Shown here piece after piece: positions 3,807-7,158 of a stretch of 29,200 nucleotides of DNA; the first letter of the stretch is position 1; the number at the start of each line of letters is the position of its first letter. The notes under the pieces are model-generated. The model saw only the letters and a list, made by a program, of their open reading frames with translations, ran no database searches and was not told the DNA's origin. The position numbers and the translations under genes are program-made. Source of the stretch: a virus; IMG/VR virus record IMGVR_UViG_3300032093_000621, positions 1-29,200 of that record; one strand, 5' to 3'.

Positions 3807-4759
3807 AACAAATTTACCTGTGCGCCGGTCAGCCGTTCTTGCTGCATGGCCTCGTAAGCCGGGTTCAACTCGCAGCCAAGATACTGCCGCCCATGCTGCA
3901 CCGCTACCTGCGCCGTGGTGCCGCTGCCCATGAACGGGTCAAGGACAACATCGCCTTGCCGCGATCCGGCGAGAATGCACGGCTCTATCAGGTCGGGCGG
4001 GAAAGTGGCGAAGTGTGCGCCCTTGTAAGGCTTGGTCGTGACCGTCCACACGCTGCGCTTGTTACGAGTGTCTTTGACGGTTACTCCCTCCGGCGTCATA
4101 AAGCCGCCGCGAGTAGCGCCAAAATCACCCATTTGACCGTTTTTCCCGTTGTTGTTCGTAACAACTTTTCCTGCATTTATCGCAGGCTCGGAAATTGCTT
4201 CCGCGTCAAAGTAATACCGCTCCGACTTTGACAGCAGGAAGATGTATTCATGCGCCTTCGTACAGCGGTCGCGCACCGATTCCGGCATCGGGTTGGGCTT
4301 GTGCCAGATAATGTCCTGCCGCAGATACCAGCCGTCAGCGCGAAGGGCAAAGGCAAGCATCCACGGGATGCCAATGAGGTCTTTAGGCTTAAGGCCCGGA
4401 GGGGGTCTATTTTCTTTTTGCGGCGCACCGCCGTTTTCAGCCACTCGCTTATAGCCAACGCCAATGGTGTGCGTAGTTGCTAATTTGCTTTCTTCCGGCC
4501 CTGCGCTTCTCGCATAACTATCCCCAATGTTCAGCCACAGCGTGCCGTCGTCAGCCAACACATCGCGCACACAGCGGAACACTTCCACCATCGCAGCAAT
4601 GTACGCCTCGGGCGTAGGCTCCAAACCGATTTGCCCTTCGTGGCCGTAGTCCCGCAGCCCGAAGTACGGCGGCGAGGTTACGCAGGTTTGAGCCTTTACG
4701 CCGTCCGCTGCCCATCGCCGCATGGTTTCGCGGCAGTCGCCAAAGTCTATGCGGTTCAT
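3803..4759 (-). CDS. Site-specific DNA methyltransferase (TSPPY type)
   Basis: The second SAM-dependent DNA methyltransferase in this cluster. The 318-residue protein carries TSPPYFGLRDYG (catalytic motif, 28-39) and LDPFMGSGTT (SAM-binding, about 273-282), again the beta order. An SPPY tetrad is typical of N4-cytosine methylases but also occurs in N6-adenine ones. The middle segment (about 95-250) includes IIWHKPNPMPESVRDRCTKA, a conserved stretch of this family. It is not a copy of the methylase at 1656-2861. No nuclease partner is adjacent. It overlaps both neighbours by 4 bases. Probably an anti-restriction or regulatory methylase. Confidence 0.9.
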   Translation of the reverse strand: MNRIDFGDCRETMRRWAADGVKAQTCVTSPPYFGLRDYGHEGQIGLEPTPEAYIAAMVEVFRCVRDVLADDGTLWLNIGDSYARSAGPEESKLATTHTIGVGYKRVAENGGAPQKENRPPPGLKPKDLIGIPWMLAFALRADGWYLRQDIIWHKPNPMPESVRDRCTKAHEYIFLLSKSERYYFDAEAISEPAINAGKVVTNNNGKNGQMGDFGATRGGFMTPEGVTVKDTRNKRSVWTVTTKPYKGAHFATFPPDLIEPCILAGSRQGDVVLDPFMGSGTTAQVAVQHGRQYLGCELNPAYEAMQQERLTGAQVNLL

Positions 4760-5271
4760 CGGTTCCGCAGCCTCCCCAAGCCACGCTCACCGAACAAGTG
4801 CCGCACCATGCCCACGAGATGCGGGTCGTTCAGCACGTCTTTAGGGTCAGCGTCACGAATGGCAGAGGCCGCAGCCTCACGCAGCCGATCCCATGCGTCT
4901 TTGTCCGCTTCCCGCATCGTCAGCCGCGCAAGGTACGCATCGCACAGTTTCAGCCGGTGCAGCGGGGTCGGTTCCTGCTTGCCCCATGCCTTTGCAGCCC
5001 ACTCGTCTTGTTCAGCGTGGCGGGCAACATCGGCGGCGCGTTGCTTGTCGGTTTTCTCGACCTTCTCGCCCGGGCGAGGAGCGGCCTTTTTGATCTCAAA
5101 CAAGCCCTGCCACCCGTTCGCAATCGACTGGTCTACAACTGCCGCTTGGTCATCGCCAAATCGCGCCAGTTTCAGTTTTGCGGCGTGTTCGCTTATCGGC
5201 TTGATGGGCTTGCGTATCACCTTGCGAAAGGCTACCCACCGTTCCCATGCTGCTTCATCAAGTTCGTTCAT
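4756..5271 (-). CDS. Replication-type protein (C-terminal region of phage replisome organiser)
   Basis: A 171-residue protein whose N-terminal part, WERWVAFRKVIRKPIKP then about 18 residues to FGDDQAAVVDQSIANGWQGLF (9-58), matches the segment found at the C-terminus of many phage replication-initiation proteins, where FG-Q-V-QSI-NGWQGLF is conserved. The N-terminal DNA-binding domain of such organisers is absent, so it is a free-standing or truncated version. The remainder is charged and helical. ATG 5271 is chosen because AGGAGG lies 6 bases upstream; a start at 5289 has no such site. It is the first gene of the leftward cluster, downstream of a promoter at 5318-5291. Recruiting host replication proteins is inferred. 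Confidence 0.6.
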   Translation of the reverse strand: MNELDEAAWERWVAFRKVIRKPIKPISEHAAKLKLARFGDDQAAVVDQSIANGWQGLFEIKKAAPRPGEKVEKTDKQRAADVARHAEQDEWAAKAWGKQEPTPLHRLKLCDAYLARLTMREADKDAWDRLREAAASAIRDADPKDVLNDPHLVGMVRHLFGERGLGRLRNR

Positions 5272-5290
5272 GGTGTCCTCCTGAACCATG

Positions 5291-5318
5291 ACTTTACCCT
5301 AGATTTCAGGATTGTCTA
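5291..5318 (-). promoter_or_regulatory. Candidate leftward promoter for the methylase-terminase cluster
   Basis: On the minus strand TAGACA (5318-5313) and TAAAGT (5296-5291) are separated by 16 bases, close to a sigma-70 promoter, about 20 bases before the start of the first leftward gene. A CTAGA-N11-TCTAG inverted repeat (5299-5319) covers the -35 box and spacer and could be an operator. The same TAAAGT -10 hexamer occurs in two other candidate promoters of this control region. Confidence 0.45.
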
Positions 5319-5349
5319 GTGTCTTAAACCCTGATGACTGATGGTGAGT

Positions 5350-5391
5350 CCGCACGGTATAGACGGAATCCGCCTACAGCGATTCGTGCGG
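5350..5391. repeat. Bulged two-part inverted repeat
   Basis: CCGCAC (5350-5355) pairs with GTGCGG (5386-5391), and GAATC (5366-5370) pairs with GATTC (5381-5385), leaving a 10-base bulge on the left side only and a 10-base loop. It is flanked by two copies of GATGACTGA (5333-5341 and 5396-5404). It may be an RNA structure or a protein-binding site. Function unknown. Confidence 0.4.
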
Positions 5392-5592
5392 AATTGATGA
5401 CTGACGGAGCCATCCGCTGTCGGCTACTTTTGGCAGATGTTCGTCCCATCCGCTGCCATTCACGCTTCCCGACGATACGCTGCGTGTCCGTAAACTGGCG
5501 GCCTCTGTACGGATTTAAGTGCGGCCCCGCGTTCTTCCCCAACGGGCCTAAAGGAGTTTTCCTAACACCGAGCATTCGGCGTGGTGGTGTGC

Positions 5593-5621
5593 TTGACAGG
5601 ACTAGAACAGCCCAGTAAAGT
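5593..5621 (+). promoter_or_regulatory. Strong candidate promoter for a small RNA
   Basis: A perfect consensus -35 box TTGACA (5593-5598) is followed after exactly 17 bases by TAAAGT (5616-5621). It points right into a stretch with no gene but with three hairpins and a terminator within 90 bases. Expected start of transcription is near 5628. It is the closest match to the -35 consensus that I found in the window. Confidence 0.55.
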
Positions 5622-5627
5622 CTGCAT

Positions 5628-5711
5628 CACGCTCAATTTGCATTGATAGCGTATCCGAGGCCAGTCCTCGGCGTCAAGGCCCCATCCTTCCCCGGTGGGG
5701 CTTTGTCGTTT
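5628..5711 (+). ncRNA. Predicted small structured RNA (about 85 nt)
   Basis: Between the promoter at 5593-5621 and the terminator at 5676-5711 lies a short transcript with no ribosome site or open frame. It can form three hairpins in order: TCAAT-TTGC-ATTGA (5633-5646), CCGAGG-CCAGT-CCTCGG (5655-5671) and the terminator stem. It lies next to the repressor gene, which is on the other strand and ends at 5800, so readthrough past the terminator would be antisense to the repressor message. In other phages short RNAs in the immunity region regulate repressor or replication genes; a role here is inference. The 5' end is estimated. Confidence 0.4.
5676..5711 (+). terminator. Rho-independent terminator of the small RNA
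   Basis: The stem pairs AAGGCCCCA (5676-5684) with TGGGGCTTT (5696-5704): six strong pairs, one G-U and two A-U, with an 11-base loop, followed by TTTGTCGTTTCT. The tail is moderately T-rich. The left arm can alternatively pair with 5715-5728 (see findings). No T-run follows the stem on the minus strand. Confidence 0.5.
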
Positions 5712-5723
5712 CTAGGGGGAGGT

Positions 5724-5792
5724 GGGGCGGCTCCGGGTGGTCTTGCCACCGCTGGCGGGAGGATGGAGCGTCAGCGCGGACAGAGCCGCCCC
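5724..5792. repeat. 10-base perfect inverted repeat enclosing two small hairpins
   Basis: GGGGCGGCTC (5724-5733) and GAGCCGCCCC (5783-5792) are perfect complements. Between them GGTGG-TCTTG-CCACC (5736-5750) and GCTG...CAGC (5751-5775) can form two more stems, giving a three-way-junction shape. It begins about 8 bases past the 3' end of the repressor gene. On the minus strand it would fold in the repressor mRNA tail and could protect or end that message, though no T-run follows. Function unknown. Confidence 0.5.
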
Positions 5793-5799
5793 GGAAGCG

Positions 5800-6036
5800 T
5801 CACTCTACAACAGTCGCCGTGATCGCGCCAGAGTCGATTACAGCGGCGTCAGGCGGGGTCAGACTGCACCCCTCGGGTAGCGCAGCAGCCGCCAGAATCG
5901 CCGCTCCGCGCTCGACACGGTGCGCCGGGATGCGCCCGTCACGCTTCCACTTCAGCACAGCGGCATCCGTAACGCCGAACGCCCGTGCTACGCGGGACTG
6001 CTTGCCCAACAAGTCGAAAAAAGGCTTGATATCCAT
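5800..6036 (-). CDS. Cro/CI-like transcriptional repressor
   Basis: A 78-residue protein with a small helix-turn-helix near residues 12-33 (SRVARAFGVTDAAVLKWKRDG), then RIPAHRVERGAAIL, the layout of Cro-like and YdaS-type proteins. It probably binds the operator array at 6050-6154 and controls both the rightward early promoter and its own. ATG 6036 has GGAG 6 bases upstream. There is no second repressor or cleavable C-terminal domain as in lambda CI, so it resembles a Cro or a minimal repressor. No partner repressor gene is visible in the window. The DNA-binding role is secure; the lysogeny role is not. Confidence 0.75.
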   Translation of the reverse strand: MDIKPFFDLLGKQSRVARAFGVTDAAVLKWKRDGRIPAHRVERGAAILAAAALPEGCSLTPPDAAVIDSGAITATVVE

Positions 6037-6049
6037 AGGTACTCCGTAA

Positions 6050-6154
6050 GGTAAACCCCCGGACTTTACCCCCGGCAGAGGTAAAAGGCAATCGTTCCGT
6101 TTCGGATGCGATAGGTAAAGAAAACGCTTGCAACGGGTAAAGACTCTGGTAACC
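6050..6154. promoter_or_regulatory. Operator array of GGTAAA boxes
   Basis: The repressor-early operon gap holds repeated GGTAAA half sites at 6050-6055, 6080-6085, 6114-6119 and 6136-6141, an inverted TTTACC at 6065-6070, and the palindrome GGTAACC at 6148-6154. The first two boxes form GGTAAA-N9-TTTACC. The boxes lie over both candidate promoters of this gap. This is the expected position for sites bound by the adjacent helix-turn-helix protein. Binding itself is inferred. Confidence 0.55.
6063..6091 (-). promoter_or_regulatory. Candidate promoter of the repressor gene
   Basis: On the minus strand TTGCCT (6091-6086) and TAAAGT (6068-6063) are spaced by 17 bases, about 30 bases before the repressor start. 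The -10 box overlaps the inverted TTTACC box and the spacer starts at a GGTAAA box, so the repressor could control its own synthesis. The -35 box matches four of six consensus bases. Confidence 0.4.
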
Positions 6155-6155
6155 T
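6128..6155 (+). promoter_or_regulatory. Candidate rightward early promoter
   Basis: TTGCAA (6128-6133) and TAACCT (6150-6155) are 16 bases apart, followed by about 38 bases of leader and the first early gene. A GGTAAA box lies in the spacer and the GGTAACC palindrome covers the -10 box, as expected for a repressed early promoter. The -10 match is poor, so the exact boxes may be wrong even if the promoter lies here. Confidence 0.35.
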
Positions 6156-6193
6156 ATCCCTGTCGAATCAATCCACAGATAGGAGCAACAAAA

Positions 6194-6424
6194 ATGTATC
6201 AGCACATCGTTATCACAGGCCGCATCGACGTCCTCGACATCCTTCTCGCCGCCAACCCGCGAGAAATCGAAGCCGAGTATCGGCTTGCCAATTCTGCCCC
6301 CGCGCTTCGGCTTGCGCTGTTGGCTTGCGTGGCAGGCCACGATCAGCGCAGCAAAGACCTCGGACTGCGAGTTGATGACCCGCCGCACATCGCTGCGGCT
6401 CGTCAACTGCTCAACAGCCTGTAA
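6194..6424 (+). CDS. Hypothetical early protein
   Basis: The first gene of the rightward early operon; 76 residues from ATG 6194 with AGGAG 8 bases upstream. The sequence is mostly helical, with an Ala/Leu-rich middle (NSAPALRLALLACVAGHDQ) and no recognised motif. An upstream in-frame ATG at 6128 would lie across the candidate promoter and lacks a ribosome site. Being first behind the repressed promoter it could be a regulator or an inhibitor of the host, but nothing in the sequence shows it. It is separated from the next gene by a terminator-like hairpin. Confidence 0.6.
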   Translation: MYQHIVITGRIDVLDILLAANPREIEAEYRLANSAPALRLALLACVAGHDQRSKDLGLRVDDPPHIAAARQLLNSL

Positions 6425-6431
6425 CCACCCC

Positions 6432-6458
6432 GGCGGGGGACTGCCAACCCCGCCTTTT
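6432..6458 (+). terminator. Intrinsic terminator or attenuator inside the early operon
   Basis: GGCGGGG (6432-6438) and CCCCGCC (6448-6454) form a 7-base G+C stem with a 9-base loop, directly followed by TTTT (6455-6458). The ribosome site of the next gene, CAGGAG, starts at the end of the T-run. It lies after the first early gene, where partial termination would make more of that gene or where an antitermination system would act. Confidence 0.6.
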
Positions 6459-6472
6459 CAGGAGCAACAGAA

Positions 6473-6745
6473 ATGGCTACCTACATCCTTGAATACGACT
6501 TCGCTGACGGCTTGATTTGCATGGTCGAGGCCGGTGTATCGGAAGGCGAGTGCCACGACCAGCGCATCGTCGCTATCGCCCTCGACGATGGCACATGGCA
6601 CAACCTGCCGTCGCCCGTCGCCGTGTGGGATGACAAACTTGCTGACGAGTTTGAGAAACACGCCGACACGGTAAACCGCGAGTGGGCAGCGCAGGAACGC
6701 TACGAAGCCGAGCGCGACTACCGCGAATCACGTTACATCCCGTAA
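6473..6745 (+). CDS. Hypothetical early protein
   Basis: A 90-residue acidic protein starting at ATG 6473 behind AGGAGCAACAGAA. The N-terminal half looks beta-rich (ATYILEYDFADGLICMVEAG, then IVAIALDDGTWHNLP) and the C-terminal part is a charged helix (ADEFEKHADTVNREWAAQER). No family is recognised. The start is supported by the ribosome site and the clean gap after the upstream hairpin. Confidence 0.6.
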   Translation: MATYILEYDFADGLICMVEAGVSEGECHDQRIVAIALDDGTWHNLPSPVAVWDDKLADEFEKHADTVNREWAAQERYEAERDYRESRYIP

Positions 6746-6756
6746 GGAGGACTACC

Positions 6757-7158
6757 ATGACGTACCGATCAATGGCTGACCTGCTGGCCGAAAACGCCAA
6801 CCTGCAGGCCGCGCAACAGGAACTCGCCGCGATGAAACTCGCTTTCCTCGCCCTGCGCGTTGACCCCGTGACGCTCAACCATCGTGGGTCTGACCTGTGG
6901 GCGCAGTTCGAAACGCTGACCTCGCTTGCCGAGGCTTGCGGCTTGGGCTCGGCGTTCGACCGGGCGATGGCGCACCGCGACCAGTCAAGCATGGATGATT
7001 TGTACCGCCACGCGATGAACGTCGATTCTGACGCCGCCCGCGCTTTGGCTGACGCCGCAGACTGGATGGGGACTTGGATACGCGAGGCACAGCAGGCGTC
7101 CGTGTCGTTTCGCCGCGCTGCGGGTTACATTGCGGACGCGCAGCGGGTGGTGCGATGA
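6757..7158 (+). CDS. Hypothetical early protein, helical
   Basis: A 133-residue protein from ATG 6757, which has AAGGAGG 6 bases upstream. Residues 1-35 form a probable coiled coil (MADLLAENANLQAAQQELAAMKLAFLALR). The rest is helical and moderately acidic. Not recognised. Its stop overlaps the start of the following small membrane gene (ATGA). Confidence 0.6.
   Translation: MTYRSMADLLAENANLQAAQQELAAMKLAFLALRVDPVTLNHRGSDLWAQFETLTSLAEACGLGSAFDRAMAHRDQSSMDDLYRHAMNVDSDAARALADAADWMGTWIREAQQASVSFRRAAGYIADAQRVVR

Follow-up and report, generated by a model that had tools for sequence, protein, structure and literature searches.

A small RNA (sRNA) gene with its own promoter, fold, and terminator is predicted in a 29.2-kb virus record without an assigned host (the window, meaning the whole stretch of DNA analyzed), and the sequence evidence strongly supports it. 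The gene lies between a replication gene and a Cro-like regulator gene, next to a second conserved structured RNA on the opposite strand. The features of the locus are as follows.

4756-5289, minus strand: replication gene with a lambda O-like C-terminal part (phrog_678, 'replication initiation O-like', E 1.6e-12)
5290-5799: gene-free stretch of 510 bases between the replication ORF and the Cro-like gene
5332-5575, minus strand: predicted class-A leader RNA (alignment A4), ~215 nt in relatives, with two pseudoknots, upstream of the replication gene
5579-5632, strand undefined: long imperfect palindrome around the sRNA promoter, from arm-swap covariation
5593-5598, plus strand: -35 hexamer TTGACA of the sRNA promoter
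5616-5621, plus strand: -10 hexamer TAAAGT, after a 17-nt spacer
5628-5711, plus strand: predicted sRNA of ~80-84 nt with three hairpins, 5' end placed from the -10 hexamer; 91.5 bits with covariance model R1
5629-5652, plus strand: hairpin H1, from the minimum free energy (MFE) fold and covariation
5655-5671, plus strand: hairpin H2, with a loop mostly C-rich in relatives
5672-5711, plus strand: terminator hairpin CGTCAAGGCCCC...GGGGCTTTGTCG followed by TTTC (MFE hairpin 5672-5708)
5800-6036, minus strand: Cro-like HTH regulator gene (phrog_409/phrog_35, Pfam YdaS/P22_Cro; weak, below the Pfam cut-off)

Promoter, hairpins, and terminator of the sRNA gene

The initial annotation had described a perfect TTGACA, a 17-base spacer, and TAAAGT, followed by three ordered hairpins ending in a terminator; the promoter was found at 5593-5621 and the hairpins, by MFE folding, at 5629-5711, all on the plus strand. 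The promoter, of the sigma-70 type, matches the consensus at 10 of 12 positions. Within the region, promoter-like and terminator-like sites taken singly were near chance (2 versus 0.8 and 3 versus 1.7, respectively), whereas the ordered promoter-terminator pair was seen a single time in the actual 29.2 kb, compared with 0.025 times per shuffled window. The predicted sRNA has an MFE of -38 kcal/mol (z = -4.6), and none of 200 shuffled sequences was as stable.

Relatives were sought with the Cro-like protein, the replication protein, an exact 22-mer, and then a degenerate terminator pattern, which together yielded at least about 200 related loci from viral contigs. Well over a hundred related phages, a lower bound, retain the sRNA together with its promoter and its three hairpins. 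Among the matches listed, 106 of 108 distinct terminator-pattern contexts had TTGAC upstream, 75-84 nt from the terminator, with a -10 element and two further hairpins after it; the two contexts without it (L119 and L204) reach no more than 15 and 22 bits with R1. The -10 elements of relatives had A at position 2 in 92/98 and T at position 6 in 83/98, and both hexamers were kept even where the sequences diverge. The orientation was the same in all relatives, which ruled out an invertible promoter.

Covariation of the stems

For covariance model R1, 44 diverse members served as seeds. Across 89 distinct sequences, a set that includes the R1 seeds and whose alignment was fitted to the structure, 13 of 21 base pairs showed compensatory changes, and 135 cells were changed on both sides compared with 40.3±4.9 in shuffled and at most 53 in slid controls. 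A held-out set comprised 39 loci (36 distinct) found only through the neighboring element, each carrying the sRNA. Here 99 cells were changed on both sides (30.2±4.6 shuffled, at most 11 slid), and TTGAC was present in all 36 distinct loci. When class-A pattern loci without a strict sRNA match were searched again with the sRNA model, 39 of 40 carried the sRNA, on the strand opposite the leader. Hairpin H2 showed compensatory changes in 5/5 pairs in both sequence sets and an arm-swap z of 12.5. Swapping hairpin arms between phages lowered the pairing of every helix, but not that of a control segment pair. The fold of the sRNA is conserved more than its sequence.

These changes speak strongly for the dedicated small RNA that the initial annotation had proposed, since relatives conserve stems instead of a reading frame. 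The absence of an open frame in the unit was likewise borne out: the terminators of relatives measure 30-41 nt, with length differences that are not multiples of three, and a small peptide or coding reading was rejected on both grounds. The T-run CTTTTCGTTTT ends many held-out relatives. An invariant TTTGTCG end was also considered and dropped; it holds only for the loci found with it, and many held-out loci end in CTTTTCG.

The searches run gave no confirmed copy of the sRNA in bacterial genomes, known phages, or plasmids. A copy in a bacterial host or prophage was rejected: the strict terminator pattern, applied to a collection of bacterial and archaeal genomes, returned only L206, a stretch of a Verrucomicrobia MAG beside a transposase-like gene and a chance match of 21.5 bits. 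Among known phages, the best homologue of the replication gene (MW202691, 36.8%) had no sRNA by the model, and blastn against plasmids gave no match. No Rfam 15 family matched the sRNA at or above gathering, and only one chance match appeared at E<=5.

Strand of the sRNA

Covariation of H1 and H2 alone cannot distinguish the strands, and the minus strand of the sRNA locus folds almost as well (z -4.45). Other features indicated that the sRNA is on the plus strand: read in that direction, four-nucleotide terminator loops were GNRA in 31/32, one G-U pair was fixed in 83/87 sequences, and the consensus energy was lower than on the minus strand. We therefore consider it very improbable that the functional RNA is the leftward message, with stems that matter on the minus strand and a plus-strand fold that is their mirror. 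The nearly equal folding and the adjoining structured leader on the minus strand would suit that explanation, but the plus strand is the one that carries the promoter, the U-tract of the terminator, the GNRA loops, and the fixed G-U pair.

The palindrome around the promoter

The sRNA promoter is set in a long imperfect palindrome, with outer arms GCGTGGTG (5579-5586) and CATCACGC (5625-5632) and inner arms inside the -35/-10 spacer. The arms covary in relatives (arm-swap z 9.9 and 10.8), and the outer right arm is also the 5' strand of H1. The palindrome folds equally well on both strands, and the comparison of G-T with C-A mismatches favors neither an operator nor an RNA. It may represent another hairpin of the leader, or else an operator bound by some protein. 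An operator shared with the cro promoter was ruled out, as the spacer palindrome and the cro upstream region had no excess of shared words (6.32 within the same phage versus 6.18 +/- 0.11 for other phages).

That the locus makes no RNA at all and consists of DNA palindromes, such as operators or a recombination or replication site, is hardly credible. The covarying, strand-symmetric palindrome around the promoter is what such an explanation would draw on. Against it, sequence sharing between the spacer palindrome and the cro upstream region is no greater within a phage than between phages, and H1, H2, and the terminator lie mostly outside the palindrome and bear RNA signatures.

Separately, the words GGTAAA/TTTACC are repeated at 6040-6180, upstream of the Cro-like gene, where they are likely operators of divergent early promoters. 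In two relatives (L244 and L256), GGTAAAG-N5-CTTTACC occurs within the sRNA promoter spacer.

Neighboring genes and synteny

In 125 distinct contexts, the Cro-like gene was found on the minus strand to the right of the sRNA in 100/114 and the replication gene on the minus strand to its left in 91/94; neither was ever on the plus strand. The connection that the initial annotation drew to the repressor and to the replication gene on the left is supported by this near-universal synteny, while the regulation itself we infer. The replication ORF probably starts at 5271, with AGGAGG just before the ATG, and not at the first ATG (5289). A weak candidate promoter lies at 5318-5291 (minus strand), and no intrinsic terminator was predicted on the minus strand within 4800-6800. 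In four loci of class C, which have no leader (L130, L143, L164, and L173), ~25-40 bp lie between the -35 element and the start of the replication gene, which is DUF1376-like as named from its sequence.

A second structured RNA on the minus strand

The stretch 5290-5799 had been described as gene-free. Its size and lack of genes were confirmed, yet it is not empty because 5332-5575 (minus strand) holds a second conserved structured RNA. For the same reason, "orphan" no longer describes the promoter-terminator unit, as the structured leader RNA of the opposite strand is coupled to the sRNA. In alignment A4, which joins this part of the window with the ~215-nt element of many relatives and has ~70 invariant columns, 21 of 45 pairs of the predicted class-A leader fold showed compensatory changes. 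Two long-range pseudoknot helices, picked by eye on the same alignment that scored them, were paired in 100% and 99% of cells with several pair types, and the leader including these pseudoknots had 148 double-changed cells versus 39.5±7 after shuffling. The element folds better on the minus strand than on the plus strand. No Rfam 15 family matched it in the window or in 15 relatives, and the leader may be the more novel part of the locus compared with the sRNA.

Two direct repeats of TCAGTCATC (window 5332-5410, minus strand; A4 columns 176-190 and 247-262) lie on either side of the leader's last hairpin. They vary together from phage to phage, a behavior that would suit competition for a single pairing partner. 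The first repeat pairs with AUGGCU, and the second, which lies near the replication gene, might pair with that strand as well.

Not all relatives share this leader: those of class B have another one, and those of class C have none. Another conserved element that looks like a leader, CCCCTCGACATGGGTTAAATCTGTC..., was observed in L122, L063, L053, L156, L016, L197, and L033, and also in L002 and L004; it lies left of the sRNA promoter, replaces the class-A leader, and is accompanied in some loci by GGTGCAATTCCGG. It had no Rfam match at gathering in the loci searched. In six further loci (L110, L128, L131, L184, L202, and L203), the replication protein is reduced to its C-terminal ~100-127 residues. 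The shortened gene is directly downstream of the class-A leader, and no function has been named for the conserved C-terminal part.

Possible function of the sRNA

We consider it fairly probable that the sRNA resembles OOP in function and acts as a cis-antisense RNA against the leftward transcript of cro and the replication gene. Its own transcription would run away from the replication operon and toward the Cro-like gene. A leftward transcript begun at the cro promoter would cross the sRNA locus, continue through the leader RNA, and reach the O-like gene; the two RNAs would therefore be complementary over the whole sRNA, which would be perfectly antisense to the cro-to-O junction of the leftward message. 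Duplex formation could lower the expression of cro and/or the replication gene, for example through RNase III cleavage or refolding of the leader, and collision of opposing polymerases could assist repression, so that early replication would be limited. The initial annotation had proposed antisense pairing with the repressor message through readthrough; the antisense relationship is retained here as probable, but readthrough is not needed, as the sRNA itself would be antisense to the intergenic part. Some points weigh against this cis-antisense role. In the window, 89 nt separate the end of the sRNA from the cro stop and no coding sequence is overlapped, although this distance is 5-21 nt in about half of the relatives. 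The replication operon may have a separate promoter between 5290 and 5590, and a purely cis-acting RNA needs neither a conserved fold nor mostly C-rich H2 loops.

Those last two features would instead suit an sRNA acting in trans, which would show its C-rich loop to G-rich sites, such as ribosome-binding sites, in host or phage messages, its location setting only the timing. The H1-H2-terminator architecture is typical of trans-acting sRNAs, and H2 loops are mostly C-rich across the family, with a fold kept more than the sequence. We nevertheless consider such a role unlikely: the loop of H2 in the window is CCAGU, which is not C-rich; the window contains no strong second target (the best non-cis match was 17 nt with 5 G-U pairs); and a trans regulator would have no need of the near-absolute synteny with cro and the replication gene. 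Distinctly less plausible is that transcription itself is the function, with a pO-like promoter that interferes with leftward transcription or opens the origin and an RNA that is a by-product. Lambda pO acts in this way (PMC3985674), the promoter adjoins the replication gene, and its hexamers withstand sequence divergence; compensatory changes in H1 and H2 would not be needed, however, and yet 99 cells versus 30 were found in the held-out loci.

We tentatively suggest, with less confidence, that the locus is a modular RNA control unit for replication. An antisense sRNA would face interchangeable leaders, and together they would switch the replication gene on or off. The leader would be a ~215-nt double-pseudoknot RNA whose two repeats could compete for one partner, an unrelated second type, or absent.

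Detailed accounts of regulatory RNAs at the replication switch exist for lambda and a small number of plasmids. The phages described here, a separate lineage, keep a predicted sRNA gene at the same place, but its sequence and fold differ, and it is accompanied by a pseudoknotted leader absent from the catalogues. If both RNAs work, RNA control over phage replication would either have arisen convergently or be deeply conserved, and the covariance models gained would make such RNAs findable in environmental phages.

Comparison with known systems

CopA of IncFII plasmids and the Inc RNA of ColIb-P9 are antisense RNAs of plasmid replication genes. The locus shares with them a predicted hairpin RNA that is transcribed away from the replication gene from a site upstream of it, as well as a structured leader, which is pseudoknotted in some cases; with IncFII CopA it also shares the repressor gene on the far side. 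It differs in that the sRNA lies upstream of the pseudoknotted leader and not inside it, and no plasmid match was obtained with blastn. In size, invariant positions, and pseudoknots, the element at 5332-5575 (minus strand) is typical of the pseudoknotted leaders and riboswitches in Rfam, although none of the families catalogued there matches it.

In lambda, oop lies between cII and O, with its promoter pO abutting O (PMC3985674, PMC5869508). OOP acts on cII mRNA through RNase III, and pO lowers pR transcription (PMC5869508, PMC3985674), and OOP overlaps cII by 52 nt (PMC5869508). The window sRNA differs from OOP in several respects: the best score of R1 against the lambda region was 4.6 bits (E 0.71, not significant); OOP folds as one long stem plus a terminator, whereas the sRNA has three hairpins; OOP overlaps the 3' end of cII, whereas the window sRNA overlaps no upstream coding sequence; and the sRNA is coupled to structured leader RNAs. 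Identity with OOP is therefore not supported, given the lack of a model match, the other fold, and the absence of coding overlap. The likenesses concern layout. Both are short RNAs with their own promoter and terminator (~80 nt here, as predicted from the DNA, versus 77 nt for OOP); both lie between Cro/CII-type and O-type genes, divergent from the O-type gene, with the sRNA convergent to the Cro-like gene as in the cII-oop-O arrangement; and the short distance between the -35 element and the replication gene in class-C loci recalls pO abutting O. By position and design, the predicted sRNA would thus be OOP-like.
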